Of a stretch of 64,000 bases of DNA, positions 46,242 through 64,000 are shown piece by piece (positions within the stretch are counted from its first letter, which is position 1; each line of letters starts with the position of its first letter). This DNA comes from Embleya scabrispora (GTDB lineage Bacteria; Actinomycetota; Actinomycetes; Streptomycetales; Streptomycetaceae): positions 682,001-746,000 of the forward strand of contig NZ_MWQN01000004.1 of NCBI RefSeq assembly GCF_002024165.1. The letters run 5' to 3'. The notes under the pieces are model-generated. The model was not told where the DNA came from and made no database searches. It saw only the letters and a list, made by a program, of their open reading frames with translations. The position numbers and the translations under genes are program-made.

Positions 46242-46641
46242 GGCTCTCGGCTTCCCTTCCTCGTGCGCGGTCGGCCCGGAACGGCCGTCCGATCCACGCG
46301 GGGAAGGTATCGGCGGCCACGGACAGGTCACTTCCGCGACCGGGTTTTTCGGGTCGCCGGGCATGCAACCCGCGAGCGGCGGAGCGCGTGTGCGGTGGGA
46401 AACCTCGGTTCGGAGGTGTGGATGAACACCGTTGTGTCGCGGTCGCCGGAGAGAGGGAGGGTTTCGGATGGGAACACCCTGGATGGACGCTCGCCAACGG
46501 CCCTGCCGGGGCCGGTACCCGGGTTTTCGGCGGCGGCTGCGAATCCTCAAATTCAGCGCAGATCCAACAACCTTGTAACGCGCCGTGGTTAGTGTTCGCG
46601 GTTCGAGCCGACACACATCCGGGAAGCGAGGATCCGGGCCC
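46242..46641. other. 400-bp gene-free divergent region
   Basis: Between the DUF1877 gene and the ECF sigma gene. Its right part (46530-46610) is AT-richer, with AACAACCTTGTAACGCGCC followed by TTAGTGTT, which could hold a promoter for the sigma gene; the -35/-10 spacing is not standard. No small gene or RNA is recognisable. Confidence 0.5.
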
Positions 46642-47314: not shown

Positions 47315-48940
47315 ATGAGGAACACCGATCCGCTCGACTTCTTCGCGAATCACCGCGAAACGATCCTCCGTTGGGGCGGCATCTCGGCCGCCGCGCTCGT
47401 GGTCTTCCTGGTCCTCCGGTTCTTCGCGATGCGAATGGGCGGATGGAAGGCGGCGACGCGGCGATTGTGGCGGGAAATCGCGCTGACGGCCTACGCATTC
47501 GGCGGCCCCGTGCGGGCCTGGTTGCGGTATCGGCGCTCGGTACGGGCGCTGGTGCGGGGCCTGGGCGCGGCGGCGACCTGGCGGGACGCGGAACGTGCCC
47601 TGGTGGCCGCGAAGTTCGCCGCGGCGCCCGCTCAGCCGTATGCCGCCGTCGTCGGCGAGGACACGGTGACGGTGCTGTTCGCCGCCGCCGGGATGCCGTC
47701 GCCTCGCGGCGTCTGGCGGCCGGTCCCCGACGATCCGTGGGCCTGGACGGCCGGCCGGGCGCAGTTGCCGTCGGTCACGCCGGACGCGGAAGGGGTCAGG
47801 CCGGTCGTCGTCGCCCTGGGCGAGCGGGACCGGGAGTGCGTGTTCGTCGACCTCGTGGTCGGTCCGGCGATGGTGTGTGTACAGGGGGATCCGCGTTCAG
47901 GACCGGCCCTGTTCCAGGCGGTCGCGGCCCAGTTGGACGCCAGGCTGCCGACCGGGCAGGTCGTGGTCGCCGAAGGGGTGCACCGCGACGTGGCCGGACA
48001 GCCGGTGCGGGAGGCGTACCGGACCGCCCGCGGCAGACCGCCCCGGCTGGGGCTGCCCACGTTCCTGGTGACTCCGGAGCTGCCGGATCCGCTGCCGCCC
48101 GAGCTGGCCGAACCGCCCGGCGGCGAACTCCCGTTGCGGCTGCTGCTCGGCGGGCCCGGACGAGGACACATCCGGACGCTGCTCACCGATCGACACGGTC
48201 GGGTCGGCGTGCCCGGCACACCGTTGGTGGTGGTGTGCCATTCCCTCGGCGCGGCGCTGGCCCGGGTGCTGCCGAACATTCCGCCGGTGCTGCCGCCGGT
48301 ACCGGCGCCGGTGGCCCGCTCCGGAGTGGACCACGCCGCGTGGTTCGCCGAGGAGGAGGCCAGGGCCGAAACTCCCGCCGCCGAGCCGCGGGCGGCGGAG
48401 CCGGTGGCCATCATGGAACCGGCCGAATCCATGGCCGCGGCCGTCTCGGCACGATCCTCGACCGCCGAGCCGGCCTCGGCCCGCCCCGCACACGAATCGG
48501 CCGGCACGGCCGCATCGCGCGCCGCGGCCCCCGCCACACCCACCGGCTCACCCGCCGTCTCGGCCCGTCGAGAGGCAACTCCCCACCAGGAGCCCGCCGG
48601 CACCCCCGGTCGATCCCCCGTCACCGAACCACCCACCGGCCGCGATCCTGCCCCGATCATCGAGCCCACCCACAGACCCGACCCGGCTCCCCCGGCCGGC
48701 CGCACCAACGAACCCGACGCACCTCCCCCGGCCGACCCAACGCACAGGCCCGACGCGTCCCGCCCCGTCGAACCGACCCACGGGCCCGACGCGTCCGCCC
48801 CCGCCGAACCGACCCACAGGGCCGACACGTCCCGCCCCGCCGAACCAACCCCCGATGAACCCGATTCGGCCACCGGCACCCCCACCGGCCGAACCCCCGA
48901 TCCCGCCCCGGAACCGTTTCCCCCCGGCTCCGGGGGCTGA
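47315..48940 (+). CDS. membrane protein with Pro-rich repeat tail, type VII-locus associated
   Basis: 541 residues, ATG 47315 after GGGGAG. One transmembrane helix (about residues 20-42, GISAAALVVFLVLRFFAM) near the N-terminus; a folded part to about residue 345 with no recognised family; then a disordered tail (about 350-541) with repeats of PTHRPDxxxPxE-type 13-mers (EPTHRPDPAPP, DPTHRPDASRP, EPTHGPDASAP, EPTHRADTSRP). Directly upstream of the EssC-like ATPase (175 bp), so likely a component or partner of that machine, on the inner membrane. No similarity to EccB/EccD/EccE seen. Confidence 0.78.
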   Translation: MRNTDPLDFFANHRETILRWGGISAAALVVFLVLRFFAMRMGGWKAATRRLWREIALTAYAFGGPVRAWLRYRRSVRALVRGLGAAATWRDAERALVAAKFAAAPAQPYAAVVGEDTVTVLFAAAGMPSPRGVWRPVPDDPWAWTAGRAQLPSVTPDAEGVRPVVVALGERDRECVFVDLVVGPAMVCVQGDPRSGPALFQAVAAQLDARLPTGQVVVAEGVHRDVAGQPVREAYRTARGRPPRLGLPTFLVTPELPDPLPPELAEPPGGELPLRLLLGGPGRGHIRTLLTDRHGRVGVPGTPLVVVCHSLGAALARVLPNIPPVLPPVPAPVARSGVDHAAWFAEEEARAETPAAEPRAAEPVAIMEPAESMAAAVSARSSTAEPASARPAHESAGTAASRAAAPATPTGSPAVSARREATPHQEPAGTPGRSPVTEPPTGRDPAPIIEPTHRPDPAPPAGRTNEPDAPPPADPTHRPDASRPVEPTHGPDASAPAEPTHRADTSRPAEPTPDEPDSATGTPTGRTPDPAPEPFPPGSGG

Positions 48941-49115
48941 GAGGGCCTGTCCCGCGGGATCTCGGTGAGGCCGCGCCGTCAGGTACCGGACGGCGCGGCT
49001 CGATCCACCGGGATCCGCCGCACAGGCCCACCGCGGCCCCGCCTCGTCCCCGGACCACCCCCGTCGGGGGCGAGGCGGGGCCCGTTCCCCCTCCCCCACC
49101 CCGCGAGAGAGTTGC

Positions 49116-52100
49116 ATGCCCGTGAATCTCGCTCTCACCACCACCGATCCGCAGGGCCGGCGCTCCGACCACCTGCTGGACGTGCCCGATTCGGCGACCG
49201 TCGCCGACCTCGGGTCGGTGCTGGGCGCCGCCGATCTGTTCCTGGGTGATCGGCGGCTCAATCCCGACGCGCGCGTGGGCGCGAGCGGCATCCGCCCCGG
49301 TGCGGTGATCGGTCTCGGCGGTCCCGCGCCGACCGAGACCGCGACGCGGGCGTGGCGACCGCCCGGGTCCGATCCGGTCCTGGTCACCGTGCGGCACGTC
49401 TCGGGCCCCGGCGCGGGCCGGGTCTGGCGGCTCGGCCCCGGCCGGCACGAGGTCGGCACCGATCGTGCGTGCGCGTTGCGCCTGGACGGCGGCGGCGCCC
49501 CCGCGCAGGGCACCTGGATCACGGTAGGCGCGGACGGCTCCGTCACGGTCGCCCTCCCGGACGACGCCGACGAGGCCGACTGCGGCCTGCGCAGCCTCAC
49601 CCCGCCGCCGCCCGTCGATCCGATCACCGGCACCCCGCTGTCCGCCGAGGAGCCGGCCGGCACGCAGGAGGGCGGCCCCGGCGGGCACTCGACGGAGCCC
49701 CCGCCGACGGGCCCGGACGGACAACCCGTACAGCCGCCGCCGCCGCCCGTCGGCCAACTGCCGCCGCTCGACGACGGCTCGCTCCCCTGGCCGACCTACG
49801 CCGACCTGTCCCTCGGTGAGCACCTGCTGCGCCCCGGCCCGCCTGACGAACCCGAGGCCGCGGTACGCCCGGCCCCGGACGGCCTCGGCATCGAGTACAA
49901 CCGGCCGCCGCGCATCGCCCCGCACCTGGACGCCGAGTCGATCCGGATGATGGGCCCGCCGACGGATACCAGCAAACGCCCGTTCCCCTTCCTGATGATG
50001 ATCGCCCCGCTCCTGATGGGCCTGGCGATGATGTTCCTGTTCCGAAGCTTGTTCTTCGTCATCTTCGTGTTCTTCACGCCGCTGATGGCGGTCGGCAACT
50101 GGATCTCCGGAAAGCGCACCGGTCGCCGCGACTACCAGGAGGCGAAGCGGGTCTATCGCATCCGCCGATCGGCCCTGGAAACCGAGATGCGCCGCGCGAC
50201 TGTCGAGGAACGCGGGCTGCGCAACTCGACGTTCCCGGATCCGGCGGCGCTGTTGCTGACCGCGACCGGCCCCGGCTTGGCCCTCTGGCAGCGCCGACGG
50301 CGCGACTCCGACCACCTGACGATCCGACTGGGCACCCTCACCCGCGCGTCCCTCAAGAGCATCGACGACCAGGCCCGGGAGAACCACTACCGCAACGTCA
50401 ACTGGCGGATCGCGGACGTGCCGTTCGGGGTCGAGATGACCGCCTTCGGGGTGGTCGGGATCGGCGCGTCCGGGGAGTTGCCGCGCCGGATCGCGAGTTG
50501 GGCGGTGATCCAGACCGCCGTCCTGCACAGCCCACGCGATGTGCGCGTCGTCGTGCTGACCGAGGACGAGCACGCCGAGGCCTGGCAGTGGGTGCGGTGG
50601 TTGCCGCACCTGCGTCCCGGCCGACCCGGCGCCGCGGTGGTGGCCCTCGGCACCGATCCGGAGAGCACCGCACACCGGGTCAACGAGTTGATCTCCGACG
50701 TGCAGACCCGCCTGGACTCCTCGCAGTCGGCGCTCGGCCCCACCCTGCAGCGCGAACCCGACGTGCTGGTGATCCTGGACGGCGCCCGCCGTCTGCGCGA
50801 TGTCCCGGGCATGATCGAGGTGTTGACCAACGGCCCGGCCGTGCGGGTGTTCAGCCTGTGCCTGGAGGAGCGCGAACACCTGCTGCCGGAGGAGTGCACG
50901 GCGGTGGTGACGGCGAACGGCGGCCGGCTCGACCTGAAGGCGTCACACGTTCCGGAGGTCAAGGGCATCCGGGCCGATCTGGTCGACCCCGCCTGGTGCG
51001 AGGAGGTCGCGCGCGCCCTGGCGCCGGTGCTCGACGTCACCGTGGAGAGCGATTCCGGACTGCCGTCCGAGGTCGCGCTGTTGCCGCTGATCGGCCAGGA
51101 ACCGCCGGACGCCGAGGTGCTGCTGCGGGCCTGGGCGCGCCGCCCGGCGTCCACCACGTTCGTCCTGGGCAGCGGGTACGAGGGTGTGTTGCGCCTGGAC
51201 CTGGTCCGCGACGGCCCGCACGGCCTGATCGGCGGCACCACCGGCTCGGGCAAGTCGGAACTCCTGCAGACGATGATCGCGTCGCTGGCAGCGGTCAACC
51301 GGCCGGACGAACTGACCTTCGTGCTGGTCGACTACAAGGGCGGCAGCGCGTTTCGCGAATGCGCCGAACTCCCGCACACACTCGGCATGATCACCGACCT
51401 GGACGGCCACCTGGTCAAACGCGCGCTGGCCTCTCTCGACGCCGAACTCCGCCGCCGCGAGACGGTCCTGAACGAGGTCGAGGCCAAGGACCACACCGAA
51501 TACCGGATCAAGCGCGCGCGTGATCCGCGACTGCCCCCGCTGCCGCGACTTCTGCTGGTGATCGACGAGTTCGCCACCCTGGTGCGCGAACTGCCGGACT
51601 TCGTACCCGGTTTGATCAGCCTCGCCCAGCGCGGCCGCTCGCTCGGTCTGCACCTGCTGCTGGCCACCCAGCGGCCCGGCGGCTCGGTCAGCAACGAGAT
51701 CAAGGCCAACACCAACCTGCGCATGGCCCTGCGGGTGACCGACCGCTCGGAGAGCCAGGACATCATCGACGGCATCGAGGCCGCCGGCATCTCGGCCAAC
51801 AACCCGGGACGGGCCCTGGTCCGCCGCGGCGAGGGCCCGCCCACGCCGTTCCAGACCGCGTTCGTCGGCGGGGAACGCCCCGGCGCGGTGCCGAGTTCGA
51901 TCGCCAAGGCCGCCGCGACCCGGCCGGTACGCGGCATCCGGCTCGGCTGGCAGCGCCTCGGCCGCCCGCTCGACTTCTCCGAAGCCGACGCCGGTGCCGA
52001 CATCGAGAACGACACGGACACGGGACCCGAGTCGCCCTTCGACCCGCACGAGGATTCGATGTCCGGGCAGTCCGAGGAGCTGCCGACGGACCTGCGCGCC

Positions 52101-53804
52101 CTGGTGGACGCGCTGCGCGAAGCCGCGGACCGGCTGCCCGACTTCCGGCCGCAGCCCAGCCCCTGGCTGCCGCCGATGGACGACCGCATGCGGCTGGACG
52201 AGTTGCCCGCCATTCCGGAGCCGGCGCCCGGCGCGCTGCCGATGGTCCCCTACGCCCTGCTCGACATCCCGCACCTCCAGGCCCGGCGTCTGGCCGCGAT
52301 CGACTTCGCGTCCTTCGGCCACCTGTACGTCATCGGCGCACCACGTTCCGGCCGCACCCAGGTGCTGCGCACCATCGCGGGCGCGGGGGCGCTCACCATC
52401 CCGTGCTCCGATCTGCACATCTACGCGATCGACGCGGCCGGCGGGGGCCTGAGCGTGCTGGAGGCGCTGCCGCACTGCGGCGCGGTCGTCTCGCGCCACG
52501 ACGCGGAGCGCATGGAGCGGCTGATCAACCGGCTGATCGCCGAACTGACCGTTCGGCAGCGGCTGATCGCCCGGCACGACTGCGCCGACGTCACCGAACT
52601 GCGCGGCAAGGTGGGCAAGGATCAACGGCCCGCGCATCTGGTGCTCATGGTGGACGGCTGGGACGCGCTGAGCACCATGCTCGACGACTACGACGGCGGC
52701 CGGTTGTACGCCGACGTCGTGCGGCTCCTGCGCGAGGGCCAGGGTGCCGGGATCCATGTGATCGCCACGTCGGAGCGGCTGTTGCTCGGCGGGCGCCTGG
52801 CCGCGCACAACGACCATCGGCTGCTGCTGCGCCAGACCGACCCGGGCGACTACACGCTCATCGGGATCCCCCGCAACAGCATCCCGGCGGCGGTGGCGCC
52901 GGGGCGGGGTTGGCTCGCGCCGGGGGCGATCGAGGCGCAGATCGCGTTGTTGCCGTCGATCGCCGAGGCGCCGGTCGCGGCGGCCGTCGACGGGGATGAC
53001 CCGTCGGCGAACGACCAGAGTGATCAGGCCGAGGCGATGCGGGAGTTGGGCCGGCGGGCGACCGTCCGCGACAGCAACGTGCCGGACGTACGGCGCCCGT
53101 TCCGGGTCGGCGAGATGCCGACGCTGATCGGGTTCCAGGAGGCGCACGACCGGGTGCCGCAGTCGCTGCGCAAGCCGTTCCACGCGCTGTTGGGTGTGGG
53201 CGGCGACGCGGTGGCTCCGCTGACCTACGACTTCGCGGACGGCGGCGGGTCGTTCATGGTCGCCGGGCCGCCGCGCAGCGGGCGCACCACGGCACTGGCC
53301 GCGATGTGTGTGTCGCTGCTGATGGGCGGCACCCGGCTGGTCGTTCTCACCCCGCGCGACTCGCAGTTGCGCAAGTTGTCCGCACACGGCTTGGCGCAGG
53401 TGCTCACCGACCCCGATCCGGAGCCGGAGGTGCTGGTGGAGGCACTGACCTCGGTGCGCGAGCATCCGGTGGTGGTCGTGGTGGACGACGCCGATCTGAT
53501 GCTGGCCTGCTCCGCCGACTCGGTATTGCGCCGGATCGCGACGTCGGGCCGGGACCACGGTCAGGGGCTGCTGCTGGCCGGGTTGGCCGAGTCGATGAGT
53601 TCGCTGGGTTGGGTCGGCATGGCTCGGCGTTCGCGGCGCGGCCTGTTGCTGGGGCCCAAGACGCTCGGCGAGGCGGATCTGATCGGGGCCCGGCTGTCGG
53701 CCGAGCAGGTGCGTACCCCGCTGGGTCCGGGCCGAGGCTGGACCGCGGGCGACGCGGGCGCGGCCATCGCGGTCCAGGTGCCGCTGACGGTGCTGGACGG
53801 CTGA
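49116..53804 (+). CDS. EssC/EccC-type FtsK/SpoIIIE ATPase of a type VII secretion-like system
   Basis: 1,562 residues, ATG after GAGAGA. Residues 1-190 hold a ubiquitin/FHA-like region (VTVRHVSGPGAGRVWRLGPG; RHEVGTDRACALRL), then a Pro-rich linker and a hydrophobic hairpin at about 289-328 (LMMIAPLLMGLAMMFLF...). Three P-loop domains follow: the first has an intact Walker A GGTTGSGKSE (about 706) and Walker B LLLVIDEFA (about 815). The second (GAPRSGRT, about 1072) and third (GPPRSGRT, about 1380) have Arg in place of Lys. The FHA-like head makes it resemble Firmicute EssC more than mycobacterial EccC. It would pump Esx-type substrates across the membrane. Confidence 0.93.
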   Translation: MPVNLALTTTDPQGRRSDHLLDVPDSATVADLGSVLGAADLFLGDRRLNPDARVGASGIRPGAVIGLGGPAPTETATRAWRPPGSDPVLVTVRHVSGPGAGRVWRLGPGRHEVGTDRACALRLDGGGAPAQGTWITVGADGSVTVALPDDADEADCGLRSLTPPPPVDPITGTPLSAEEPAGTQEGGPGGHSTEPPPTGPDGQPVQPPPPPVGQLPPLDDGSLPWPTYADLSLGEHLLRPGPPDEPEAAVRPAPDGLGIEYNRPPRIAPHLDAESIRMMGPPTDTSKRPFPFLMMIAPLLMGLAMMFLFRSLFFVIFVFFTPLMAVGNWISGKRTGRRDYQEAKRVYRIRRSALETEMRRATVEERGLRNSTFPDPAALLLTATGPGLALWQRRRRDSDHLTIRLGTLTRASLKSIDDQARENHYRNVNWRIADVPFGVEMTAFGVVGIGASGELPRRIASWAVIQTAVLHSPRDVRVVVLTEDEHAEAWQWVRWLPHLRPGRPGAAVVALGTDPESTAHRVNELISDVQTRLDSSQSALGPTLQREPDVLVILDGARRLRDVPGMIEVLTNGPAVRVFSLCLEEREHLLPEECTAVVTANGGRLDLKASHVPEVKGIRADLVDPAWCEEVARALAPVLDVTVESDSGLPSEVALLPLIGQEPPDAEVLLRAWARRPASTTFVLGSGYEGVLRLDLVRDGPHGLIGGTTGSGKSELLQTMIASLAAVNRPDELTFVLVDYKGGSAFRECAELPHTLGMITDLDGHLVKRALASLDAELRRRETVLNEVEAKDHTEYRIKRARDPRLPPLPRLLLVIDEFATLVRELPDFVPGLISLAQRGRSLGLHLLLATQRPGGSVSNEIKANTNLRMALRVTDRSESQDIIDGIEAAGISANNPGRALVRRGEGPPTPFQTAFVGGERPGAVPSSIAKAAATRPVRGIRLGWQRLGRPLDFSEADAGADIENDTDTGPESPFDPHEDSMSGQSEELPTDLRALVDALREAADRLPDFRPQPSPWLPPMDDRMRLDELPAIPEPAPGALPMVPYALLDIPHLQARRLAAIDFASFGHLYVIGAPRSGRTQVLRTIAGAGALTIPCSDLHIYAIDAAGGGLSVLEALPHCGAVVSRHDAERMERLINRLIAELTVRQRLIARHDCADVTELRGKVGKDQRPAHLVLMVDGWDALSTMLDDYDGGRLYADVVRLLREGQGAGIHVIATSERLLLGGRLAAHNDHRLLLRQTDPGDYTLIGIPRNSIPAAVAPGRGWLAPGAIEAQIALLPSIAEAPVAAAVDGDDPSANDQSDQAEAMRELGRRATVRDSNVPDVRRPFRVGEMPTLIGFQEAHDRVPQSLRKPFHALLGVGGDAVAPLTYDFADGGGSFMVAGPPRSGRTTALAAMCVSLLMGGTRLVVLTPRDSQLRKLSAHGLAQVLTDPDPEPEVLVEALTSVREHPVVVVVDDADLMLACSADSVLRRIATSGRDHGQGLLLAGLAESMSSLGWVGMARRSRRGLLLGPKTLGEADLIGARLSAEQVRTPLGPGRGWTAGDAGAAIAVQVPLTVLDG

Positions 53805-53818
53805 CCGGCGGCGCGGGG

Positions 53819-53868
53819 CCGGTCGGCATGTTCCCGTCCACTGCGGACTTCCGGAACGTGCCGACCGG
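53819..53868. terminator. bidirectional 16-bp hairpin
   Basis: CCGGTCGGCATGTTCC pairs with GGAACGTGCCGACCGG (one G-U), loop 18 bp. It lies between the convergent ATPase and first WXG100-like gene. Confidence 0.8.
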
Positions 53869-53896
53869 TCCCGGCCGAAGTGGGGCCGGCCGGCGG

Positions 53897-54232
53897 CTAC
53901 TTGTGTGCCGCAGCTTCCGCCTTCATCTTCGCGATGGCGGCGTTGATGTCGCCCATCAGCTTCGTGTCGGATTTACCCAGTGAGTCCGCGATCTCGGTGA
54001 AGTTCTTGGCATACGCGCTGATGTTGGCCGCCGAGTTCTTCATCTGCGTGCTGAAGGTTTGGTACGCCTCCTGCAGGGCGGGGCTGGCCTTCTCGAACAC
54101 CAGGCCGTCGTGGAGCAGATTGGCGACCTGGGTCTGGAGGTCGTCGAGCTCATTGGAGATGTCGGTCAGCTTGGTGCCCATCCGCGTGGCGGCGCTGCGG
54201 ATTTCGTCGTAATCGACCTTGATGTCGGCCAT
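53897..54232 (-). CDS. WXG100-like secreted protein
   Basis: 111 residues, ATG after GGAGGACTCG. An all-helical hairpin typical of Esx proteins in size: helix 1 MADIKVDYDEIRSAATRMGT, turn LHDGLVFEKASPALQEAYQ, helix 2 TFSTQMKNSAANISAYAKNF. The W-x-G turn is replaced by DGLVFEKASP. Likely exported by the EssC-like ATPase, alone or as a partner of the next protein. The C-terminus MKAEAAAHK is charged. First of three minus-strand genes transcribed toward the ATPase. Confidence 0.83.
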   Translation of the reverse strand: MADIKVDYDEIRSAATRMGTKLTDISNELDDLQTQVANLLHDGLVFEKASPALQEAYQTFSTQMKNSAANISAYAKNFTEIADSLGKSDTKLMGDINAAIAKMKAEAAAHK

Positions 54233-54281
54233 CGAGTCCTCCGAGGGGTTCGATTGTCGGGTGGGGAGGCGCGGGCGGGCG

Positions 54282-54590
54282 CTACTGGGAGGAGTTGACC
54301 TTGTCGGCGATGTCCTTGTCCATGTCCTGGACCGACTGCATGATCTGCCGGAACTGCTGCGCGTAACCCTTGATGCTTTCCGTCGCGGCCTGGAGCGCCG
54401 TGCTGAACTTCTCGTACTGCGCCTGGAGCGCGGGGCTGGCCTTGACGAGCACGAGGTTGGTGGTCAGCACGTTGTCGACCTCGGTCTTGGCCTCCTTCAT
54501 CCGGGGGACGAGCGTGTGCTCGACGCTGTTGTCCAGGAGGTTGGACACCCGGGTGATCTCGGAGTAGGTGAGTTTGATATTGGCGCCCAT
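54282..54590 (-). CDS. second WXG100-like secreted protein
   Basis: 102 residues from ATG 54590 (GAGGAGA upstream; an extension to 54953 is out of context). MGANIKLTYSEITRVSNLLD; turn TTNLVLVKASPALQAQYEKF; helix 2 ALQAATESIKGYAQQFRQIM. The shared core 'VxxKASPALQxxYxxF' with the neighbouring gene marks a paralogous pair that probably heterodimerises. Again no W-x-G. Cytoplasmic until exported. Confidence 0.83.
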   Translation of the reverse strand: MGANIKLTYSEITRVSNLLDNSVEHTLVPRMKEAKTEVDNVLTTNLVLVKASPALQAQYEKFSTALQAATESIKGYAQQFRQIMQSVQDMDKDIADKVNSSQ

Positions 54591-54649
54591 GGCGGGTCTC
54601 CTCGGGAACGAGTCGGGGTGGGTCGTCACGAACAACGGTGCGGCGAGGG

Positions 54650-55672
54650 TCAGTTGATCTTGCCTCCGGGCGGCGGCTTCTGCACGCCCCCGCCCTTTTC
54701 GGTACCGTCCCTGCCGGCGTCCTCGTCGGCGTACTTGGGATCGCGCTTCCACTCGCTCTGGGGTCCGTCGCGAATGTAGTGCTCGGTCGTCTTCCCGGAG
54801 TGGCTGATCATGGTGCCACTGCCGTCCTTGTTGATGGTGAAGTCCGACGTACTCTTGGTGCCGTCGCTCAACGTGGTGGTGATCGAGTAGTCGCGGACGT
54901 CGATCCGGCCGGGCTTTCCGTTCTTGCCCGCGCCCGGTACGTCGTCGACCCATTCCGGGGGACCCTTGTACGTGGTGGTCGTCTCGTAGGTCTGCCCCTG
55001 CGGATTGGTGATCTTCGACGTCTCCTTGACGATGTTGTTGTCCTTGTCCAACTCGACACTCACGTCGATCTTGCCGTGCTCGTCCTCGTAGTGGTGCGAA
55101 GTCGGCGGCTTGTCACTGGGCTTGGGGGGCTCGTCGCCGGGCTTGGGGGGCGCGCTGTTCTCACCCTTGGCGATCCAGGCGGCACACCACGCGGGCGCCT
55201 CCGGATCGTGGCATGCGTGCCGGATGCTCTCCTCCGGGTGATCGCGGAAGTACTGGGTGGCACCGATCGAGGCCAGGTAGTCGTCCCACTTGGCCTTGTC
55301 CGCGAGCCACTTGTCGTGCACGGCCTTGGTGTTGCGCCATTGGTCGATGCCCAGGCCGGTGGTGATCAGTCCCGCCGAGCCGGAGATCCTGGAGTCCTGG
55401 TCGAAGAAGAGGTCGGACACCGCCTTGAAGCTGTCGGCGAGCTTGTTCAGCCCCTCCTTGGCCTTGGCGGTACGGGACTTGGAGTGGTGATAGAAGCTGT
55501 TGAACGAGGTCGAGAGGCCGGAGGTGCCCAGGGCCGCGCGGCGCTCGGCGGCGCCGGCCTCGCCCAGCTCGCGAAATGCCCCGCCGGAGCCCGAATCAGC
55601 CTGCTTGGCGAGTTCTCTGAGCTTGGTGTTGATCTCGTGCAGGTTGGTGTAGTCGATGGCGAAATCCGCCAT
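54650..55672 (-). CDS. Esx-like N-terminal domain protein with beta-rich C-terminal region
   Basis: 340 residues. N-terminal about 105 residues are helical and start like the two WXG100-like proteins (MADFAIDYTNLHEINTKLRE). A middle part with Cys residues (HACHDPEAPAWCAAW) and a Pro-rich linker (PPKPGDEPPKPSDKPP) follow, then a beta-rich tail of short Thr-rich strands (YEDEHGKIDVSVELDKDNN, KTTEHYIRDG). Length and layout suggest a type VII substrate or effector. Shares a 188-bp divergent promoter region with the giant gene. Confidence 0.78.
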   Translation of the reverse strand: MADFAIDYTNLHEINTKLRELAKQADSGSGGAFRELGEAGAAERRAALGTSGLSTSFNSFYHHSKSRTAKAKEGLNKLADSFKAVSDLFFDQDSRISGSAGLITTGLGIDQWRNTKAVHDKWLADKAKWDDYLASIGATQYFRDHPEESIRHACHDPEAPAWCAAWIAKGENSAPPKPGDEPPKPSDKPPTSHHYEDEHGKIDVSVELDKDNNIVKETSKITNPQGQTYETTTTYKGPPEWVDDVPGAGKNGKPGRIDVRDYSITTTLSDGTKSTSDFTINKDGSGTMISHSGKTTEHYIRDGPQSEWKRDPKYADEDAGRDGTEKGGGVQKPPPGGKIN

Positions 55673-55737
55673 TCGGACCTCCTGTTCCTCGCCCGACTCG
55701 CGTGGTGCGCGCCCGCGCCGCGAACCGCTCCCATTTC

Positions 55738-55816
55738 TGTACGCGTCGCAACCATCGGGGGTTCAACCGAGATTGTCGCGAGGAAGAATGAACCCGGCGA
55801 ACCAATGGCGCGTACA
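55738..55816. promoter_or_regulatory. concentric inverted repeats in the divergent promoter
   Basis: Outer arms TGTACGCG (55738-55745) and CGCGTACA (55809-55816); inner arms GGTTCA (55760-55765) and TGAACC (55789-55794). Both pairs share the centre at 55777 and leave 14-bp gaps on each side. Lies between the Esx-like gene and the giant substrate gene. May be a double operator or a looping site. Confidence 0.6.
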
Positions 55817-55860
55817 AAGGAGCGCCGTGGTTGCACGAATCGAGCGAGAGAGGCGCTTCG

Positions 55861-58800
55861 ATGGCTCGTCCCGGGGACTGGAGTGCGCTCGGCCTCGACA
55901 GCGATCCGACGCCCGGCGACGCCGACCGGATCGACCGCGTGATCGCCGCGGAACTGGCGTTCGTCGAACTCGCCAAGACCATCGACAGCGGTCTGACCGA
56001 AGTCAAGAACACCTCCAGCGTGATCTTCGTCGGCAAGACCGCCGAGGCGCTGCGCGGCGTCATCGACGGAAACCTGCGCAATTACATCTCCACGTTCAAG
56101 AAGGCCCACGAGGACGTACGCGCCGCGCTGACCGCCTACGTCGGCGTCATGCGTCACGAGCAACACCGCGCGGACACCGCGTTGTCCGCCGCGGCCGCGC
56201 TGTCGGAGGACGACAAGGAGGGGCGGGCCGCGCACAAGACCACCGCGGAGGACGCCAAGTCGATCCTGTCGACCGCGGCCGACACCGCCGCGCGCAAGAT
56301 CATGGCCGCCGGCCAGTCCATCGCCTCCCCCGTGGACGAGTGCGAGGAGTTCTGGAAGGCGCTCGGCTGGATCGCGCTGATCCTGGCCATTCCCGCGATC
56401 TTCATCGGCGGTCCGCTCGCGCTGCTCAGCATCGCGCTGAATGTCGCGCTCCTGATCAAGACCGCGATCGACTTCGCGCACGGCAAGGCGAGTGTCACCC
56501 AACTCGTGTTGGGCATCCTGGGCATGATCGCCCCCACGACCAAGGGCCTGCACCTGGGTCAGCTGTGGAGTGGCATCAAGGGCATCGGCGGGCGCGGGAT
56601 CACCGGCACCAAGAACTTCTTCGGCGGCGGCGCCAACTCGTTCGGGCTGTTCGGCCGGGTCGGGTTGGGTATCGACGACGCGGTGGCCGCGGCGGGCTCG
56701 TGGATCAGGGGCGGCGCACAGGGGCTCAAACTGGGTCCGCTCCTGACCATGGGGCCCGGTTTCGCGAAGCTGGGCGGCGGCCTCAAATTCTTCCCGCTCG
56801 GCGCCGAACTCACGGTGATCAACCTGGCCGGCGCGAAGACGTTCTTCGGACTGCGTGCGGTGGCGACCACGCTCAACGCGTTCAAGAATCTGGGCACCTC
56901 CATCGCGCACGGCCTGAGCGGCTTCAAGGGACTGCGCCTGTTCCTGCCGGTGGCGGCCGACGAGATGCCCAACGGCCTGGGGCTGGCCTTCCGGATCGGC
57001 TTCATCGACCGCGGCGTGTTCGGCATGTACCGCTACGGCGCCTTCATCGACGGCAAGTTCATCGGCGCGGGCTCCAAGATCTCCGCCGCCGCCAACGCCG
57101 GGTTCAACGCGTTCGGGCACGGCGGCGAGCTGATCAAGCTGCCCAACGTGCACCTGGGCTCGTTCGACTCGGTGCACTCGGGCCCGCTCGGCGGCGCGTT
57201 CGACATGCCGCCGCTGTCCACGAAGTTCACCAACGGCTTCGGCCACTTCGATGTGATCAACCTGCCGTCGCTGAACACGTTCGGCACCGGCTTCCACGCC
57301 GGCAACCTCCCCGGCCTGGGCACCTTCATCAACGACCTGGGCGGCCTGAACGCGCTTACCCACCTTCCCGGAGTCGGCGCCAGGATCGCCGACATCCCCT
57401 CGTTCTCGTTCACCGGGTTGGGCCTGACCCACCTCACCGGCAACTTCTCCGTCCCGCACGGGATCACCGGCCTCGGCGCCACCGGCGTGCACGCGCTGCC
57501 GCCCGCGCTCGGACACATCAGCATCCCCAACCTGGACACCGTCGGCGCCGGCGTGGTCGGCAAGATCCAACTCGGCCTGCCCGGATCGAGCGCGCTGGTG
57601 CACGACCTGCCCACGCCGGGTACGAACACGCACACCGGGCTCGACGGGCTCGGCGCCGTCGCTCTCCCGCAACCGGGCCACGTCGCCATGCCGGACGTCA
57701 CCACGCCGGCCCTGCCACACGTCAATGTGTCCGGGGTCGGCGCCCTCCCGCTCACCACGCACATCCAGACGCCGAACGTCGGCGCGCTGCCGAACACCGG
57801 CCAGGTCGCCGTGCCTTCGGTAACCGGCATCGGCGCCCTCGGACACGTCGCGACGCCCAACGTCGGCGGCCTGCCCGCGATCGCCCAGGTGGCGACTCCC
57901 CACACGGGCGGGCCGATCCACATGGCCGACGTGAATTCGGCCCACCTCGGCGGCCTGCGTACCGGCGCCGACGGCGAGACCTCCCTGGTCGGGCCCGGCG
58001 CGAGCGGGGTCGACGTCAAGGGTGTGCAAGGCCTGGGCGGCACCGGCACGCACATCGACCTCAACGGCAGCCGGGTGGTCCTCGGCGGCCCGGCGTCGGG
58101 CCCGGTGGTGCACACCGCGCCGGGCGGCCTGCCGGGTGTTCCGACCGTGTCCGGCGGCCTCACCGGCGGCGCGCACTTCGTCCCGGCGAGCGGGGCGACC
58201 CACAACCTCAACGTGTTCATGATGCAGGGCGCGAGCTACGACTTCGCGCACACGTTCCGCACCATCCCGGGCCTGAACGGCGTCGAGGTACGGGTCCTGC
58301 CAAGCACGCAGGCCGGCCGCACCGTCGACATCCACATCGATCCCGGCGGTCGCAGCGACCTCTCGGCGGACCACATCACCGTCGGCGACCGGGAGGTGTT
58401 GCGGATCGAGCGCAATCTCGGGGACGGCGGCACCCAGCGCTGGGACTACGAGCTGAGCGCCGCGAACAACCATCGCCTCCTCGACGACCAGATCATCGAC
58501 ACCCACGTCACCGGCCCCGTCCCCGGGCAGGCCGTCGAACTGACCACGCTGCCCGCCCCGCAGCTCCCGCACGTCACCACCACCGGGTCGACCGTGCCGA
58601 CCGTCGCCGGCCCCGGGCAGCGTGTCGTCGACATCCCCGGACTGTCCGGCACGCGCCTGGAGTACCGCGTCGGCGACGGCGGCGGCATCGAGGGCATCCG
58701 GATCACCGGCGGTCCGGACGCGGCGCACCTGACCCCCTCGCGTGTGACCGGCCCGGCCGGGAACGACATCGTGCGGGTCGAGCAGGAGATCGTGGCGAAC

Positions 58801-61800
58801 GTCGCGGTGCGCCGCTGGGACTTCGACGTATCGGGTGAAAGCGGGCGGCTCGACCGCATCGAACGGCGCATCACCCTCACCGGCGGCGAACACGACGACA
58901 CCCTGGTCGCGATCCATGTCGACCACAACGACCGAACCCTCGGCATCACCCACTTCGACGGCGCCAGCAACGCCCTGCACACGGACCCGGGCGCGCCACC
59001 GGTGCACTTCAACGACGTGGGCATCGTCGTCCCCACACCCGGCGGCTTCCGGCTCTACGACCCGGCCACCGGTACGCCGTCGGGCTCCGGGCTGCGCCTG
59101 ATCGGCTCCAACGGCCGGCCCCTGGCGCTGCACGTGCTGACCCCGGACGGCGGCGGCGCCCGCACCCTCGTCGGCGCGGACGCCGCCAGGTCACTCGGCG
59201 TCGTCACCGTGCCGGAACACGCGGGCGGCATGCTCCACGTCGTCCCCAACGGCACCGGCCCGACCGTGCGCGTCTTCGGCGCCGACGGCCGGTTCTCGCA
59301 CAACTCGCTGCCGCTGACCGGCATCGACCGCCTGGGCGTGGCCGGCGGCCACATCCGCTCGCCGCACGTCGGCACGCCCCAACTGGCGCACGCCGACGGC
59401 GCGCCGGTGCCCGACACCCATGTCTTCCGCCAGATCGGCAACGAGTTCCGGATCCAACACGCCGGCGGCCGGTTCCACGTCGACGCGGCCGGCGCCCGCG
59501 CACACGACGTGGTGACCCTCACCACCCCCGGCGGCGCCGGAACGGGCCTGCACGTGTTCACCCCGGTCGGCGGTCCGAACCGGCTGCCGCACCTGCGCGC
59601 GGACGACGGCGCGCCGGCCACGGTCGCGACCGTGCGCACCGTGAACAACACGTTCCACGTCACCGGCGCGAGCGGGCAGCCCCATGTCGTACAGGTGCAC
59701 GCCCCGGGGGGCGCCCACTCGCATGACGCCCTGCCGCTCACGGGAGGCGGCGCGCCCGGCGGCTTCATCCGGCTGCCCGACGCCGCCGACGGAGCGCCGC
59801 GACTGGTGCACGGCGACGGCCGGATCGTGCCGGGGGAGACCGAGGTCACCCCGCAGCACGGCGGCGGCTACCTGGTGGGGCACCCCGGCGGCAAGATCGT
59901 CGTGAACAACGTCGGCGCGCACACCCACAACGCGCTCGAGCTGACCGGCGGTCCCGGGGCCGGGCGGTTCGTCCACACTCCGGTGGGCACCCCCGACGTC
60001 CCCGTGCCGCACCCGAGCGACCGAAGCGGCGTATCCGACACGAACCTCACCGTCACCCGCGTCGGCGACGAGTTCCGACTCACCGACCCCGACGGGTCGT
60101 TCACCGCGCACGGTCTCGACGGTGCCCACCGCTACGACGCGACCCACCTGAGCGGCGGCCCGTTCGACGGCCGGTTCGTGCGCATCGAAGGCGGCACCGA
60201 CACTCTCGTCGACGAGCATCTCGTCGCCGTCCCCAACGCGCACGTCGTGCGCCAGACCGGGATCACCACCGAGGGGTTCGCGCAAACGACTGCTGGGCCG
60301 GGTCGTGGATTCAGGGTCGGCGACGGCACCGATCACATCGTCGTCGACATGCGCGGCGCACACCGCTACGACGTGGTCGGCCTGCGCGGGGCCGACGGCG
60401 CCGCGACGCACGAGTTCGTCTTCACCCCGGCCCCGGTCGCCGGGGCGGCGGCGCCCGACCCGCGGCACCTGCTCAAGGGCGCCGACGGCGGCAACCTCGG
60501 CTTCTCGGTGGTCGCGCGCCCCGACGGCACACTCCGGGTCACCCACGGGGAGACCGGCATGGTCCGGGGCTTCTCCGCCACCGGCGCGTTCGAGTTCGAG
60601 GTGTTGCGCCTGACCGGTGTGGACCGTGTCGACCTGTCGCAACTCGTCCGGGTACACCCCGGCGGGGCGCACACCCTGGTCGACGACACGCTCGCCGACG
60701 TCGCGAACACGACCGTGCGCATCCGCCCCGGCGGCGGCTACCACGTCGCGGGCGCCGGCGGCGAGTTCCGCCTGTTCGACCGGACCGGCAACCTCGACTT
60801 CCACGTGACCGCGCGCCCGGTGACGCAGGAGGGCGGGATCACCGTGTTCCGGGTGGACGACGGCGCGGGAGTCCACCGGTTCGACATGATCGGGCTGTCC
60901 GACGCCCGGATCGGCGATCCCCTGCACACCCGGTTCCTGAGCACCACGCCGGGCGACCTGCGGGTGCTGAGCGGCCATCTCGACCACCTCCCGGGCCTGC
61001 GCGCGACCCAGGAACCCGGCGGCGGGTACCGGATCGGCGGCGTCGGCGCGCGTGCCGGCGAGTTCCAGCGGTTCGACCCGGGTGGGCGCCTGGAGTTCCA
61101 GCGCATCGACATCGTCGGCGCCCGGGGCGGCATCGACCCGAACCGGCACTTCGAGGTCACGTACCCCGCGGGCGGCGGCGAGGCCACGTGGTCGCTGGTA
61201 CGCACCGACGCCCACGGTGTCCCCATCCCCACGCCGGGCCGACCGAAGTGGTTCGACGGCGGCGTGGTGGACACGAAGGGGGCGGACGCCGGCCACGTGC
61301 ACCTGATCAGCCACCTCAAGGTCACCGTGTTCGAACGACGCGTCCTGTCCGATGGCAACATCCTCGACGCCCACCACTCGTCCGCCTCGCTGGGCACCTT
61401 CAGTCTGGTCAATCAGCGGGGTCGATGGGCCGAGTTCGACATCAACGGCAACCTCGTGCACGAGGGCACCCGGCACTGGGGTGAGAGCACCCGCAGCTGG
61501 TTCGACGTCAAGAGCGTGTTCGGCTTCGACGTGCGGGTCCGGCACTTCCAGCTCAGCGCGGACGGCGGGCACGTGCTGGCCGATCTGCGCCACCACCCGG
61601 CGACCCAGGGCTTCGCGGCCGACACCAGGTGGGTGCGCTTCGACGCCGACTTCCGGGCGATCGCGTCCGGCAACCGGCACTGGGACTCCGGCCTCGGACG
61701 CGGCTGGACCGACACCATGCGCCACCCGATCACCAACGAGATCGTCACCGCCCAGAAGAAGTTCGGCCGCTTCCAGCTCGGTCTGCACAACGTGCGCCGC

Positions 61801-64000
61801 TACCACCAGCTCGAACTGGGACCGGACGGCGTCCCCTCGCGCGACTGGGTCTCCCGGCACGCCGACGGCAACATCAACGGGCTCGGCAAGACCCTGCACA
61901 ACGGCGACTTCCTCACGTTCGAACGTTTCGCCGAGCAGCGGCCCCCGGTGTTCTTCCGCAACCTGTTCAGCGGCGAGTTCCGCGTCGCCGACCTCTCCCG
62001 GCACCCGTGGCTGGCCCACGACAACCGGCTGCGCGTGGGCACCTGGAAGCAGGAGCCGGCGGGCGGCGGTCCGGAAGGGCACGGCGTACAGTTCATCACC
62101 AACAACAAGACGGTGATCGACGTCGCGCACACCGGCGACATCGTCCGCGAGGTGCGCCCCCTGCACAACGGCACCACTCTCACCGTCGGCGACGTCCGGA
62201 TGCCCGAGGTCGCCGGCGCGCAGGTGGCGCACCGCCCCGGCTACCTGCCGTGGACCGAGGGCGCCGACGGCCTGCACGGCCACCGCACGTTCCACGAGGG
62301 CGACTTCGTCGTCACCCCGGGCACCGGCGATCGCCAGATCACCTGGCAGGACCGGATCACCGACGACGTGGAGGACGGCGACTGGTACTCCCCCGGCACC
62401 AAGGAGTGGCGGGTGGTGCGCACCGGCCTCTCCGACGGCACGGTCATCGACTACCGGCCCAGGCCCGCCGTCGGCGCCGCCGACGGCGCGGGGCCGAACA
62501 CCCGCGGCCTGTTCGACACCCACGCCGGGAACTGGATCCGGTACGACCACCACGGCGTGGTCGTCGCCCGGATGGACTCCTTCCCCGCTCCCGACGGAGT
62601 GGGACGCGTCGAGATCATCGGCACCATGGGGCGCAACCCGCGCGAGTTCCGGTGGCACGACGCGCTCGATCCCACCATCGGCGGCAAGCGCATCACCGCC
62701 TTCGAACGGCAGATCTCGCCGTGGCACTTCGACCGCGAGTCGTTCCAGGACTTCGACGCGGGCGGCAACCTCATCCGCGACCACCGACAACTCGGCGAGG
62801 GCCTGAGCGTCCAGGGATGGAAGGGTGTCGACGCCGCGGGCAACGAGGTCTGGCACTGGAACAAGCTGGACGCGAACAACAACGTGATGCACTTCGGCGA
62901 CGGTGTCGGCGATCGTGTCCGGCACTGGTTCGACCGGCACGGCAACCCGCTCCCCGGCTGGGAGAAGGGCGCCCGGTGGTCCGATCGGATCACCAGCCTG
63001 GACCACCAGGTCGTGCAGGAGATCCCGGCGCGCAAATACACCAACGCCTTCCGGGACTTCTTCACCGACAGCCCGTTCCGGGTCCGCGACTTCCGGCCCA
63101 CTCCCACCACGGAGTTCAACCGGCACCTGTGGCAGGAGTCCGACCAGGGCATCATCGCGCAGGCGAAGGTCAAGCTCGCGGACGACACGTTCCTGGAGAT
63201 CAACAACTTCAACAAACACGCCCGGCGCTACGACATCGACGGCATCACCGTCATCAACGAGCGCACGATCCCCGGCTACATCCACGAGTACAACGCCGAC
63301 GGCGGCATCATCATCGGTCGCGAGACCCACTTCACCGGCCTCGCCAACGAATACCGCGCCCTGAACCGCACGTTCCGCGAACCCAACCGCTGGGGCTACG
63401 GCCCGTCCGTGGACGGCGAGGTGGTGCCGGAGCCGTTCATGCTTCGCGCGCTGCAGTCCGTCGGCATCGACATGTCCCACGAGTTCCTGCTCGACTTCAC
63501 CGTGAACCTCCTGGTGCTGTCCATCATCCGGTTGCGCGCCGGCGGCGGGTTGAGCATGATCGACGTCGGCCGCGCCGCGTTCGGCGCCGCGTTGAGCTCG
63601 ATGACCAAGGGCACCGTCTCGTCGGCGCACCTGGCGGCCAACCGGGGCGGCTGGAAGGTGTACTGGTCGAACATCGACTACGGACAGCCGGGGCCTTGGC
63701 GGCCCAACGACGACAGTGCCAACACCGAGTGGGCGGCCAACGAGCGCCCGGTGCGCTGGCGCGGAGGCACGTACGAGTTCGCCGTGGGCCTGAGCACCGG
63801 CGCGGTGGCGGGGTTCGTCAGCGGCGCGGCGCAGTCCGCGATCTTCGGGGTCCGCCGTGCCGACGGCGCGATCATCAAACTCACCGGCGGCGACGCCGCG
63901 TTGGCCGGTCTGGCCTCCATGGTCGGCGGGGTCCTGGGCACCGTCTCGGTGGGCGCGCTGCGGGCCCTGATCCAGCACTCGATGGGCAGCCGGTGGATCC
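55861..64000 (+). CDS. giant repeat-rich putative type VII substrate (5' part; runs off window)
   Basis: At least 2,713 residues with no in-frame stop, open at the right edge. The ATG at 55861 follows GAGAGAGG and opens MARPGDWSALGLDSDPTPGD, a start seen on large Streptomyces Esx-like proteins. Residues about 1-160 are helical (Esx-like), about 163-205 are hydrophobic (WIALILAIPAIFIGG), and 400-700 are Gly/Leu/Pro-rich short repeats (NVGALPNTGQVAVPS) reminiscent of mycobacterial MPTR tails. From about 1113 come ~65-residue beta-repeats, then YD-like modules (FDxxGN) up to about 2450. Another hydrophobic region lies at about 2541-2710. A C-terminal effector domain, if any, is beyond the window. 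The opposite-strand reading frames are shadows. Confidence 0.8.
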   Translation, partial: MARPGDWSALGLDSDPTPGDADRIDRVIAAELAFVELAKTIDSGLTEVKNTSSVIFVGKTAEALRGVIDGNLRNYISTFKKAHEDVRAALTAYVGVMRHEQHRADTALSAAAALSEDDKEGRAAHKTTAEDAKSILSTAADTAARKIMAAGQSIASPVDECEEFWKALGWIALILAIPAIFIGGPLALLSIALNVALLIKTAIDFAHGKASVTQLVLGILGMIAPTTKGLHLGQLWSGIKGIGGRGITGTKNFFGGGANSFGLFGRVGLGIDDAVAAAGSWIRGGAQGLKLGPLLTMGPGFAKLGGGLKFFPLGAELTVINLAGAKTFFGLRAVATTLNAFKNLGTSIAHGLSGFKGLRLFLPVAADEMPNGLGLAFRIGFIDRGVFGMYRYGAFIDGKFIGAGSKISAAANAGFNAFGHGGELIKLPNVHLGSFDSVHSGPLGGAFDMPPLSTKFTNGFGHFDVINLPSLNTFGTGFHAGNLPGLGTFINDLGGLNALTHLPGVGARIADIPSFSFTGLGLTHLTGNFSVPHGITGLGATGVHALPPALGHISIPNLDTVGAGVVGKIQLGLPGSSALVHDLPTPGTNTHTGLDGLGAVALPQPGHVAMPDVTTPALPHVNVSGVGALPLTTHIQTPNVGALPNTGQVAVPSVTGIGALGHVATPNVGGLPAIAQVATPHTGGPIHMADVNSAHLGGLRTGADGETSLVGPGASGVDVKGVQGLGGTGTHIDLNGSRVVLGGPASGPVVHTAPGGLPGVPTVSGGLTGGAHFVPASGATHNLNVFMMQGASYDFAHTFRTIPGLNGVEVRVLPSTQAGRTVDIHIDPGGRSDLSADHITVGDREVLRIERNLGDGGTQRWDYELSAANNHRLLDDQIIDTHVTGPVPGQAVELTTLPAPQLPHVTTTGSTVPTVAGPGQRVVDIPGLSGTRLEYRVGDGGGIEGIRITGGPDAAHLTPSRVTGPAGNDIVRVEQEIVANVAVRRWDFDVSGESGRLDRIERRITLTGGEHDDTLVAIHVDHNDRTLGITHFDGASNALHTDPGAPPVHFNDVGIVVPTPGGFRLYDPATGTPSGSGLRLIGSNGRPLALHVLTPDGGGARTLVGADAARSLGVVTVPEHAGGMLHVVPNGTGPTVRVFGADGRFSHNSLPLTGIDRLGVAGGHIRSPHVGTPQLAHADGAPVPDTHVFRQIGNEFRIQHAGGRFHVDAAGARAHDVVTLTTPGGAGTGLHVFTPVGGPNRLPHLRADDGAPATVATVRTVNNTFHVTGASGQPHVVQVHAPGGAHSHDALPLTGGGAPGGFIRLPDAADGAPRLVHGDGRIVPGETEVTPQHGGGYLVGHPGGKIVVNNVGAHTHNALELTGGPGAGRFVHTPVGTPDVPVPHPSDRSGVSDTNLTVTRVGDEFRLTDPDGSFTAHGLDGAHRYDATHLSGGPFDGRFVRIEGGTDTLVDEHLVAVPNAHVVRQTGITTEGFAQTTAGPGRGFRVGDGTDHIVVDMRGAHRYDVVGLRGADGAATHEFVFTPAPVAGAAAPDPRHLLKGADGGNLGFSVVARPDGTLRVTHGETGMVRGFSATGAFEFEVLRLTGVDRVDLSQLVRVHPGGAHTLVDDTLADVANTTVRIRPGGGYHVAGAGGEFRLFDRTGNLDFHVTARPVTQEGGITVFRVDDGAGVHRFDMIGLSDARIGDPLHTRFLSTTPGDLRVLSGHLDHLPGLRATQEPGGGYRIGGVGARAGEFQRFDPGGRLEFQRIDIVGARGGIDPNRHFEVTYPAGGGEATWSLVRTDAHGVPIPTPGRPKWFDGGVVDTKGADAGHVHLISHLKVTVFERRVLSDGNILDAHHSSASLGTFSLVNQRGRWAEFDINGNLVHEGTRHWGESTRSWFDVKSVFGFDVRVRHFQLSADGGHVLADLRHHPATQGFAADTRWVRFDADFRAIASGNRHWDSGLGRGWTDTMRHPITNEIVTAQKKFGRFQLGLHNVRRYHQLELGPDGVPSRDWVSRHADGNINGLGKTLHNGDFLTFERFAEQRPPVFFRNLFSGEFRVADLSRHPWLAHDNRLRVGTWKQEPAGGGPEGHGVQFITNNKTVIDVAHTGDIVREVRPLHNGTTLTVGDVRMPEVAGAQVAHRPGYLPWTEGADGLHGHRTFHEGDFVVTPGTGDRQITWQDRITDDVEDGDWYSPGTKEWRVVRTGLSDGTVIDYRPRPAVGAADGAGPNTRGLFDTHAGNWIRYDHHGVVVARMDSFPAPDGVGRVEIIGTMGRNPREFRWHDALDPTIGGKRITAFERQISPWHFDRESFQDFDAGGNLIRDHRQLGEGLSVQGWKGVDAAGNEVWHWNKLDANNNVMHFGDGVGDRVRHWFDRHGNPLPGWEKGARWSDRITSLDHQVVQEIPARKYTNAFRDFFTDSPFRVRDFRPTPTTEFNRHLWQESDQGIIAQAKVKLADDTFLEINNFNKHARRYDIDGITVINERTIPGYIHEYNADGGIIIGRETHFTGLANEYRALNRTFREPNRWGYGPSVDGEVVPEPFMLRALQSVGIDMSHEFLLDFTVNLLVLSIIRLRAGGGLSMIDVGRAAFGAALSSMTKGTVSSAHLAANRGGWKVYWSNIDYGQPGPWRPNDDSANTEWAANERPVRWRGGTYEFAVGLSTGAVAGFVSGAAQSAIFGVRRADGAIIKLTGGDAALAGLASMVGGVLGTVSVGALRALIQHSMGSRWI
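59200..61160 (+). repeat. about nine protein-level beta-repeats in the giant gene
   Basis: Imperfect ~65-residue units sharing blocks like GG(G/R)(F/Y)xVxxAxG...H(D/N)xxxLTGG: RIQHAGGRFHVDAAGARAHD, HGGGYLVGHPGGKIVVNNVG, RPGGGYHVAGAGGEFRLFD, PGGGYRIGGVGARAGEFQRF. Divergent at DNA level, so not recent tandem copies. Confidence 0.6.

Follow-up and report, generated by a model that had tools for sequence, protein, structure and literature searches.

The 10.96-Mb genome of Embleya scabrispora contains a genuine and conserved type VII-like locus that is linked to a single giant protein. The locus, designated A, lies within the 64,000-nucleotide stretch of DNA that was analysed (C4:682001-746000, hereafter the window), in which the gene set spans positions 46585-64170 (window coordinates). 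Judged from sequence, it is probably dedicated to the type VII-like export of one giant protein, which would be displayed at the surface or secreted. There is still debate on how type VII motors carry proteins through the membrane and on the identity of the pore-forming subunit. With its compact motor, one conserved giant, a linked sigma factor and a promoter pair of its own, the locus, which also exists in relatives belonging to Streptomyces, represents a small system in which the need for a pore, cargo recognition and regulation can each be tested by single deletions.

Gene set, promoter pair and linked sigma factor

All six genes described in an earlier note on this DNA were found again at the same coordinates (Table 1). 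The giant gene, which that note had followed for more than 2,713 residues up to the edge of the window, was completed by extending the contig to the right. Its stop codon lies at 64170, i.e. 170 bp past the window, giving a full length of 2,769 amino acids, and a gene for a beta-helix/AAA protein comes next. This AAA gene, two paralogous loci and the rarity of the promoter pair could not be seen within the window of the earlier note. The sigma factor gene is located directly 5' of the proline-rich gene in the same direction, and the sigma factor is probably a member of the system.

Table 1. Features of locus A (window coordinates)
Feature	Position	Strand	Basis
ECF-type sigma factor, 212 aa, start codon uncertain	46585..47223	+	Pfam Sigma70_r2 1e-12, r4 3e-7
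Proline-rich single-pass membrane protein, 541 aa	47315..48940	+	One predicted membrane helix; homologues in 28/38 loci
Triple P-loop type VII-like ATPase, 1,562 aa	49116..53804	+	FtsK_SpoIIIE; three P-loop motifs
WXG1, 111 aa, WXG100 family without W-x-G	53897..54232	-	PF06013 2.5e-9
WXG2, 102 aa, WXG1 paralogue	54282..54590	-	31% identity, 9e-11
Tailed Esx protein, 340 aa	54650..55672	-	28% identity to paralogue B, 6e-25
TGAACC-N16-CGTACA promoter-like site toward esx/WXG arm	55738..55765	-	One of the genome's two exact matches
TGAACC-N16-CGTACA promoter-like site toward giant	55789..55816	+	The other of the two exact genome matches
Giant gene, 2,769 aa	55861..64170 (last 170 bp beyond window)	+	Extension of contig to the right
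Beta-helix/EccA-like AAA gene, 876 aa	64167-66797 (outside window)		ATGA overlap with giant stop

The two paralogous loci of the same genome, B (C1:5865390-5883641) and C (C1:862971 to about 881570), each contain genes for a proline-rich protein, an ATPase, WXG proteins, a tailed Esx protein, a giant and a beta-helix/AAA protein. A sigma gene is adjacent to locus B; none was found at locus C.

Between the esx and the giant genes of locus A, two TGAACC-N16-CGTACA sites diverge. A search of the complete genome for this exact A-type motif gave two matches, both of them at locus A, and a backward-pattern control gave none. A B-type motif (CGTGGTC) occurs three times, two of them at locus B. A looser pair with the motif on both strands was detected in 34 of 46 such regions, which include one identical pair (L135/G040), compared to 0.85% of 4,000 random 300-bp windows drawn from the same loci with the true sites included. 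From the form of the motif we infer that the TGAACC-N16-CGT sites may be ECF promoters. Side by side with this, the promoter region of locus B (C1:5875842-5875923) contains a divergent pair that by eye forms a near-perfect inverted repeat.

Sigma gene and motif pair were compared in 32 loci after omission of six loci lacking the upstream end (L117, L121, L127, L128, L130 and L139). Both were present in 22 loci, the sigma gene alone in four, the pair alone in one and neither in five (p=0.003). If the sigma gene of L146, which lies just outside the fetched stretch on the same contig, is counted, the table changes to 22/5/1/4 (p=0.015), and with a distant sigma gene on the contig of L151 to 22/6/1/3 (p=0.057). 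Since these tests are uncorrected for kinship, the sigma link is plausible but not proven. Against it count the five or six of 32 loci that possess a sigma gene but no such pair, L142, which has the motif but no sigma gene within the locus, and locus C, which has neither. Motif placement and the modest association are consistent with a linked ECF-type sigma factor that would read the paired sites and jointly activate the giant and the esx/WXG arm.

Distribution and co-inheritance of the locus

By searching genome contigs with a profile built from the N-terminal 430 amino acids of the giant, 38 named loci were identified in 11 genera (Embleya, Streptomyces, Kitasatospora, Actinacidiphila, Dactylosporangium, Catenuloplanes, Kribbella, Nonomuraea, Actinocrinis, Catenulispora and Actinospica). 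The whole set or a part of it is common to these loci: an ATPase gene was found in 38, WXG and tailed Esx genes in 37 each, the proline-rich gene in 28, sigma and beta-helix genes in 26 each and the AAA part in 19; the main-clade C-terminus of the giant is present in 19 of the 38. Many of the misses coincide with the end of a contig or locus, and others are genuine absences. The sigma homologues mostly occupy the same position, except in L148 and L149, where the beta-helix/AAA and sigma genes precede the giant. In L125 the block of ATPase, proline-rich and sigma genes is inverted. The rearranged locus L151, in which the ATPase remains only as a partial reversed frame and WXG and Esx genes are missing, counts against the export reading. 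A decayed ESX locus was ruled out as an explanation, as intact copies under purifying selection recur.

Co-inheritance was studied in 394 genomes sampled evenly from the class; 17 of these contain the giant's N-terminus (E<=1e-25). When three or four ATPase candidates per genome were scored with a profile of domains D2-D3, built from giant-linked ATPases, 18 places in 16 genomes reached at least 693 bits, a limit set after viewing the list, and all 16 genomes are among the 17 bearing a giant. Thus, at this limit the giant accompanies the ATPase clade in 16/16 genomes. The two refutations set out in the earlier note did not materialise: EccB, EccD and mycosin were not found beside the window, and the giant does co-occur with the ATPase. 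The next match (621 bits) belongs to a genome without a giant, and in the seventeenth giant-bearing genome (G292) the giant lies on a 4.7-kb contig. Correlations of distances with those of the ATPase, uncorrected for the relatedness of the species, were 0.89 for the giant's N-terminus, 0.93 for the tailed Esx protein and 0.96 for the proline-rich protein.

At E<=1e-40, the same ATPase profile matches 191 of the 394 genomes, a number in which ordinary EccC and other relatives may be included. Twelve ATPase loci without a giant (L168-L179) were inspected. Seven of them have WXG- or Esx-like matches, five (L168, L169, L171, L176 and L179) encode a protein of 427-465 amino acids with a giant-like signal end, and EccB, EccD or mycosin were found at none of the twelve. 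Given these core-less relatives, the giant system looks like one branch of a wider core-less family, and such ATPase/WXG loci may be widespread among actinomycetes. In the own genome, a fourth ATPase of the same type was noticed (L019, C1:4296250-4300911), where a 1,553-aa frame has a degenerate Walker A motif (GAARSGRS); no giant was seen alongside, and by eye a kinase-like gene adjoins.

The ATPase, its small partners and the pore

The triple P-loop ATPase reported in the earlier note is borne out by two stretches matching FtsK_SpoIIIE (Pfam, 4e-55) and by three P-loop motifs. In all 43 giant-linked ATPases, which comprise one identical pair (L135 = G040) and further close orthologues, P-loop 1 possesses its Lys, Asp and Glu residues, and P-loops 2 and 3 have Arg in place of the Walker A Lys. 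The genome's own EccC has Lys in all three P-loops. As Arg occurs likewise in P-loops 2 and 3 of 12/12 relatives without a giant (L168-L179), it is a mark of the wider family. A tree was calculated from the 43 giant-linked ATPases, the 12 relatives from other actinomycetes and, from the own genome, an orphan and EccC. The giant-linked proteins formed one clade (support 0.96); since EccC was the outgroup used for rooting, the tree cannot settle an EccC-type affinity. Driven by its sole canonical P-loop, D1, the ATPase would, by homology to known motors, act as a membrane motor that may export the giant.

The ATPase is EssC-like in architecture only, in that three P-loop domains are united in one chain. 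To this extent its proposed likeness to Firmicute EssC stands, while the NCBIfam scores all remained under their cut-offs (EssC 488.5 bits for the whole chain, cut-off 778.4; EccCa 359 bits and EccCb 297 bits for the halves). By these scores the ATPase is assigned to neither EssC nor EccC. Among solved structures, the best relatives are 4nh0 (227 bits; named FtsK/SpoIIIE) and YukB (221 bits), with which the ATPase aligns across residues 260-918. A membrane segment is located at about 300-318, preceded by a long stretch; such a stretch ahead of the membrane segment is a trait of EssC. The suggestion that this head is FHA-like found no firm support: neither the whole chain nor its first 328 amino acids gave a Pfam match at E<=0.1, and only a weak match to TIGR02500 was obtained at 93-154 (E=0.001).

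Both small proteins proposed as WXG100-like proved to be so, WXG1 by exceeding the cut-off of the WXG100 model (37.7 versus 27.3 bits) and WXG2 as its homologue. However, neither W-x-G nor YxxxD/E was found in any of 48 WXG-type partners within the searched parts of the named loci. These motifs are the usual type VII marks, and their absence counts against the export reading. The ESX pair of the own genome shows both W-x-G and YxxxE by eye. The third small protein has an Esx-like helical N-terminus and a repetitive tail. Homologues exist in both paralogous loci, so the Esx-like protein of the earlier note is retained, while the beta character of its tail was judged by eye only. By homology, the Esx-type proteins may be targeting partners for the helical, T7SS-signal-like N-terminus of the giant.

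When the EccB, EccD, mycosin and Esx proteins of the own genome were used as BLAST queries, no match was detected within 40001-83000 (window coordinates), nor, at E<=1e-5, in 51 distinct loci obtained from the 38 named and 26 further-listed loci, which overlap in 13 contigs. The absence of EccB, EccD and mycosin asserted earlier thus holds for the locus, for the DNA beside the window and for the other loci. EssB/YukC (PF10140) gave no match in the genome, with a positive B. subtilis control, and none of the locus proteins that were scanned matched EssA, EsaA or EsaB. The only EccB (C1:4806542) and the only EccD (C1:4821264) of the genome belong to one ordinary ESX cluster, in which the best mycosin match among the matches listed is also situated (C1:4809442), in a search dominated by other subtilisins.

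The locus may be a substrate-specific motor that works on the genome's single ordinary ESX channel (EccB/EccD/mycosin, C1) and is not an independent exporter, an alternative that we consider possible without favouring it. It concerns the pore and is compatible with dedicated export. The clustering of the channel genes in one place, their absence from the loci and the lack of an EssB/YukC match in the genome fit such borrowing. EccB was found in 34/35 genomes with a giant locus, but nearly as often in relatives without a giant (17/18). As the base rates are about equal, co-occurrence is uninformative on pore borrowing and was dropped as a sign of a common pore. Moreover, the ATPase is just 27-29% identical to the own EccC, and in each of four same-genus genomes three or four N-terminal matches to the giant face a single EccB, so that EccB copies do not track the giants. 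One giant-bearing draft genome (G078) gave no EccB match, with EccD and mycosin scoring 102 and 310 bits.

Of the minimal or alternative type VII system envisaged in the earlier note, a motor without a co-encoded Ecc core in a Streptomyces-type host, tied to one giant, has been retained. With an ordinary ESX core elsewhere in the genome, such an alternative system need not be autonomous. That it constitutes an autonomous third type VII-like form in actinomycetes, with no ESX pore or Ess partners, a one-P-loop motor, a single-pass proline-rich partner, a giant cargo that helps to build its own path through the envelope and a private sigma factor, is in our opinion unlikely.

Compared to known systems, the locus shares with T7SSb (EssC/YukB of Bacillota) a single-chain ATPase with three P-loop domains and adjacent WXG-family proteins. 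It differs in lacking EssB throughout the genome, in the Arg of P-loops 2 and 3 (43/43), in its giant partner and in the linked sigma factor; the core components of T7SSb are named in parts of PMC9333272. With ESX-4-type T7SSa it has in common the actinomycete host, an FtsK-type motor matching EccC models below their cut-offs and an EccA-like AAA domain, but EccB, EccD and mycosin are missing from the locus and the WXG partners are devoid of W-x-G and YxxxD/E. For S. coelicolor, a table in PMC4791881 marks only ESX-4, and passages of PMC8401907 describe ESX copies of Streptomyces. A table note in Zhang et al. 2012 (PMC3482391) treats as mobile T7SS certain clusters that combine a YueA-like ATPase with solo WXG proteins. 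These clusters resemble the locus in their three FtsK/HerA domains and solo WXG proteins, but they are noted there for proteobacteria, planctomycetes and other phyla, with only the middle domain active, whereas the Embleya locus resides in an actinomycete, has only its first domain canonical and possesses a giant partner. A literature search at the level of titles and abstract openings, exclusive of subscription papers, revealed no description of the locus among the matches listed and no paper combining Embleya and type VII secretion.

The giant protein and its neighbours

The giant consists of a T7SS-signal-like N-terminus, a variable, repeat-bearing middle (about 400-1690) and a conserved C-terminal region of about 1,080 amino acids. 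Across 11 giants, residues 1-400 and the part beyond about 1690 are highly conserved, whereas the stretch between them is poorly conserved and contains large gaps. Full-length giants range from 2,352 to 4,010 amino acids (B, 2,602; C, 2,364), and one frame reaches 5,229. Over residues 1-140, the giant shares homology with the signal domain of T7SS-linked RHS proteins (hhalign, probability 99.3%). PF21725 falls just short of its cut-off of 27 bits in giants B (7e-6, 26.5 bits) and L124, is at chance level in C and gave no match in A, L123 and L135. An Esx-like N-terminus with repeats had been noted earlier; the T7SS-signal-like N-terminus and the repeats stand, with the repeats situated in the middle of the protein. 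An ungapped offset scan against block shuffles revealed, in giant A, spacings of about 68-74 amino acids and their multiples within about 1190-1525 and a further 28-aa spacing near 634-701, both above the shuffled controls. Mid-region repeats spaced by about 65-75 amino acids exist in giants A, B, C and G040 and are near-identical in B, while G039 has two distant repeat matches only. The count of the motif (F/Y/W)D..G exceeded the shuffle maximum in five of 11 giants (A, B, G044, G040 and G050) and was tied with it or below it in the other six.

Behind the signal domain, all seven giants scanned have a hydrophobic segment at about 162-194 (171-189 in giant A); a second one lies near 212-230 in G020 and G039. 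This segment, the conserved ends and a length-variable middle that would fit a spacer across the wall, together with the fact that the giant is encoded with the giant-linked ATPase clade, might indicate that the giant is not cargo but a machine part, a cell-envelope conduit for the small Esx proteins. Such a conduit would be functionally comparable to EsaA/YueB. However, the giant carries the signal domain of presumed cargo, and we rate a conduit as very improbable. If the giant is exported, as is preferred here, the N-terminal hydrophobic segment could be its anchor outside the cell, the repeat-bearing middle a stalk and the conserved C-terminal region of about 1,080 amino acids the working head.

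Selection was estimated from two comparisons within Embleya, in which dN/dS amounted to 0.29 and 0.38 for the giant and to 0.10 and 0.15 for the ATPase. Within the genus, the giant is thus under purifying selection, which is strongest at the N-terminus. Against the more distant G020, the values rose to 0.72 (giant) and 0.32 (ATPase), which counts against dedicated export of a conserved giant. In the main clade, the C-terminal region is conserved from Embleya to Catenulispora and includes invariant residues. For region 1690-2769, no Pfam toxin or repeat relative was detected in giants A, B and C, apart from one chance-level match in C, and profiles of the N- and C-termini gave PDB matches only at E 0.04 or worse.

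An effector domain and an immunity gene were looked for at the end of the giant. That it is a contact-dependent antibacterial toxin of the polymorphic type delivered by the ATPase could be deduced from its signal domain, which it shares with a T7SS-linked RHS deaminase protein, from hydrophobic segments near the C-terminus of giants A and G020 (absent from five others scanned) and from the existence of a clade with a different C-terminus. This clade 2 is formed by ten Streptomyces loci, and the differing C-terminus was seen in nine. But Pfam toxin domains were found neither in six giants nor in six clade-2 tails, the latter yielding nothing better than E=0.07. The ATGA overlap leaves no immunity-like gene between the giant and the AAA gene, and beyond the AAA gene a comparison of ten loci revealed common frames only among same-type loci of near relatives, with the exception of one region in common with G032. 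For the main clade, a toxin with an exchangeable tail was ruled out by the conserved C-terminus. We therefore hold delivery of a toxin to be rather doubtful, and on present sequence data surface or secreted display of the giant is more likely than a swap-tail toxin. As a separate observation, clade-2 giants (L139, L140, L144, L145 and L152) end in Lys/Arg-rich stretches, e.g. KRPRKGKGRA.

The relationship to T7SS-linked RHS proteins is confined to the homologous N-terminal signal domain, since the giants scanned show neither a Pfam match to RHS repeats nor a toxin domain. An RHS fold of the C-terminal region was likewise unsupported (hhalign against the RHS profile, 3% probability). An example of such RHS proteins was encountered at L180 (G038:C1:8038501-8044000), whose 1,495 amino acids comprise a T7SS signal domain common with the giant, RHS repeats and an XOO_2897-like deaminase C-terminus.

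The stop codon of the giant gene and the start codon of the AAA gene overlap as ATGA, and the beta-helix/AAA gene is translationally coupled to the giant. It encodes a right-handed beta-helix (PF13229, 1e-33) fused to an AAA domain near SpoVK/EccA/CbbX, which scored under the cut-offs of TIGR02881 (258 bits) and TIGR03922 EccA (227 bits, cut-off 467). The coupled protein may keep the giant export-competent or strip off its partners. The proline-rich protein has a predicted membrane helix at about residues 21-39, a domain of about 300 amino acids and a proline-rich tail, and no relative was found in Pfam or NCBIfam and no credible one in the PDB (profile matches E 0.04 or worse). It had been proposed as a channel or tether component. 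A membrane protein with a single predicted helix it is, but since there is only one hydrophobic segment, which is followed by basic residues, it is unlikely to form a channel by itself. The locus encodes no EccB/EccD or EssB partner.

In three genomes (G179:C1:3871252 and 3881072; G266:C151; G392:C69), a giant-linked ATPase was seen with two giant genes nearby on the same contig, separated by 10-12 kb, an arrangement that suggests tandem cargo.
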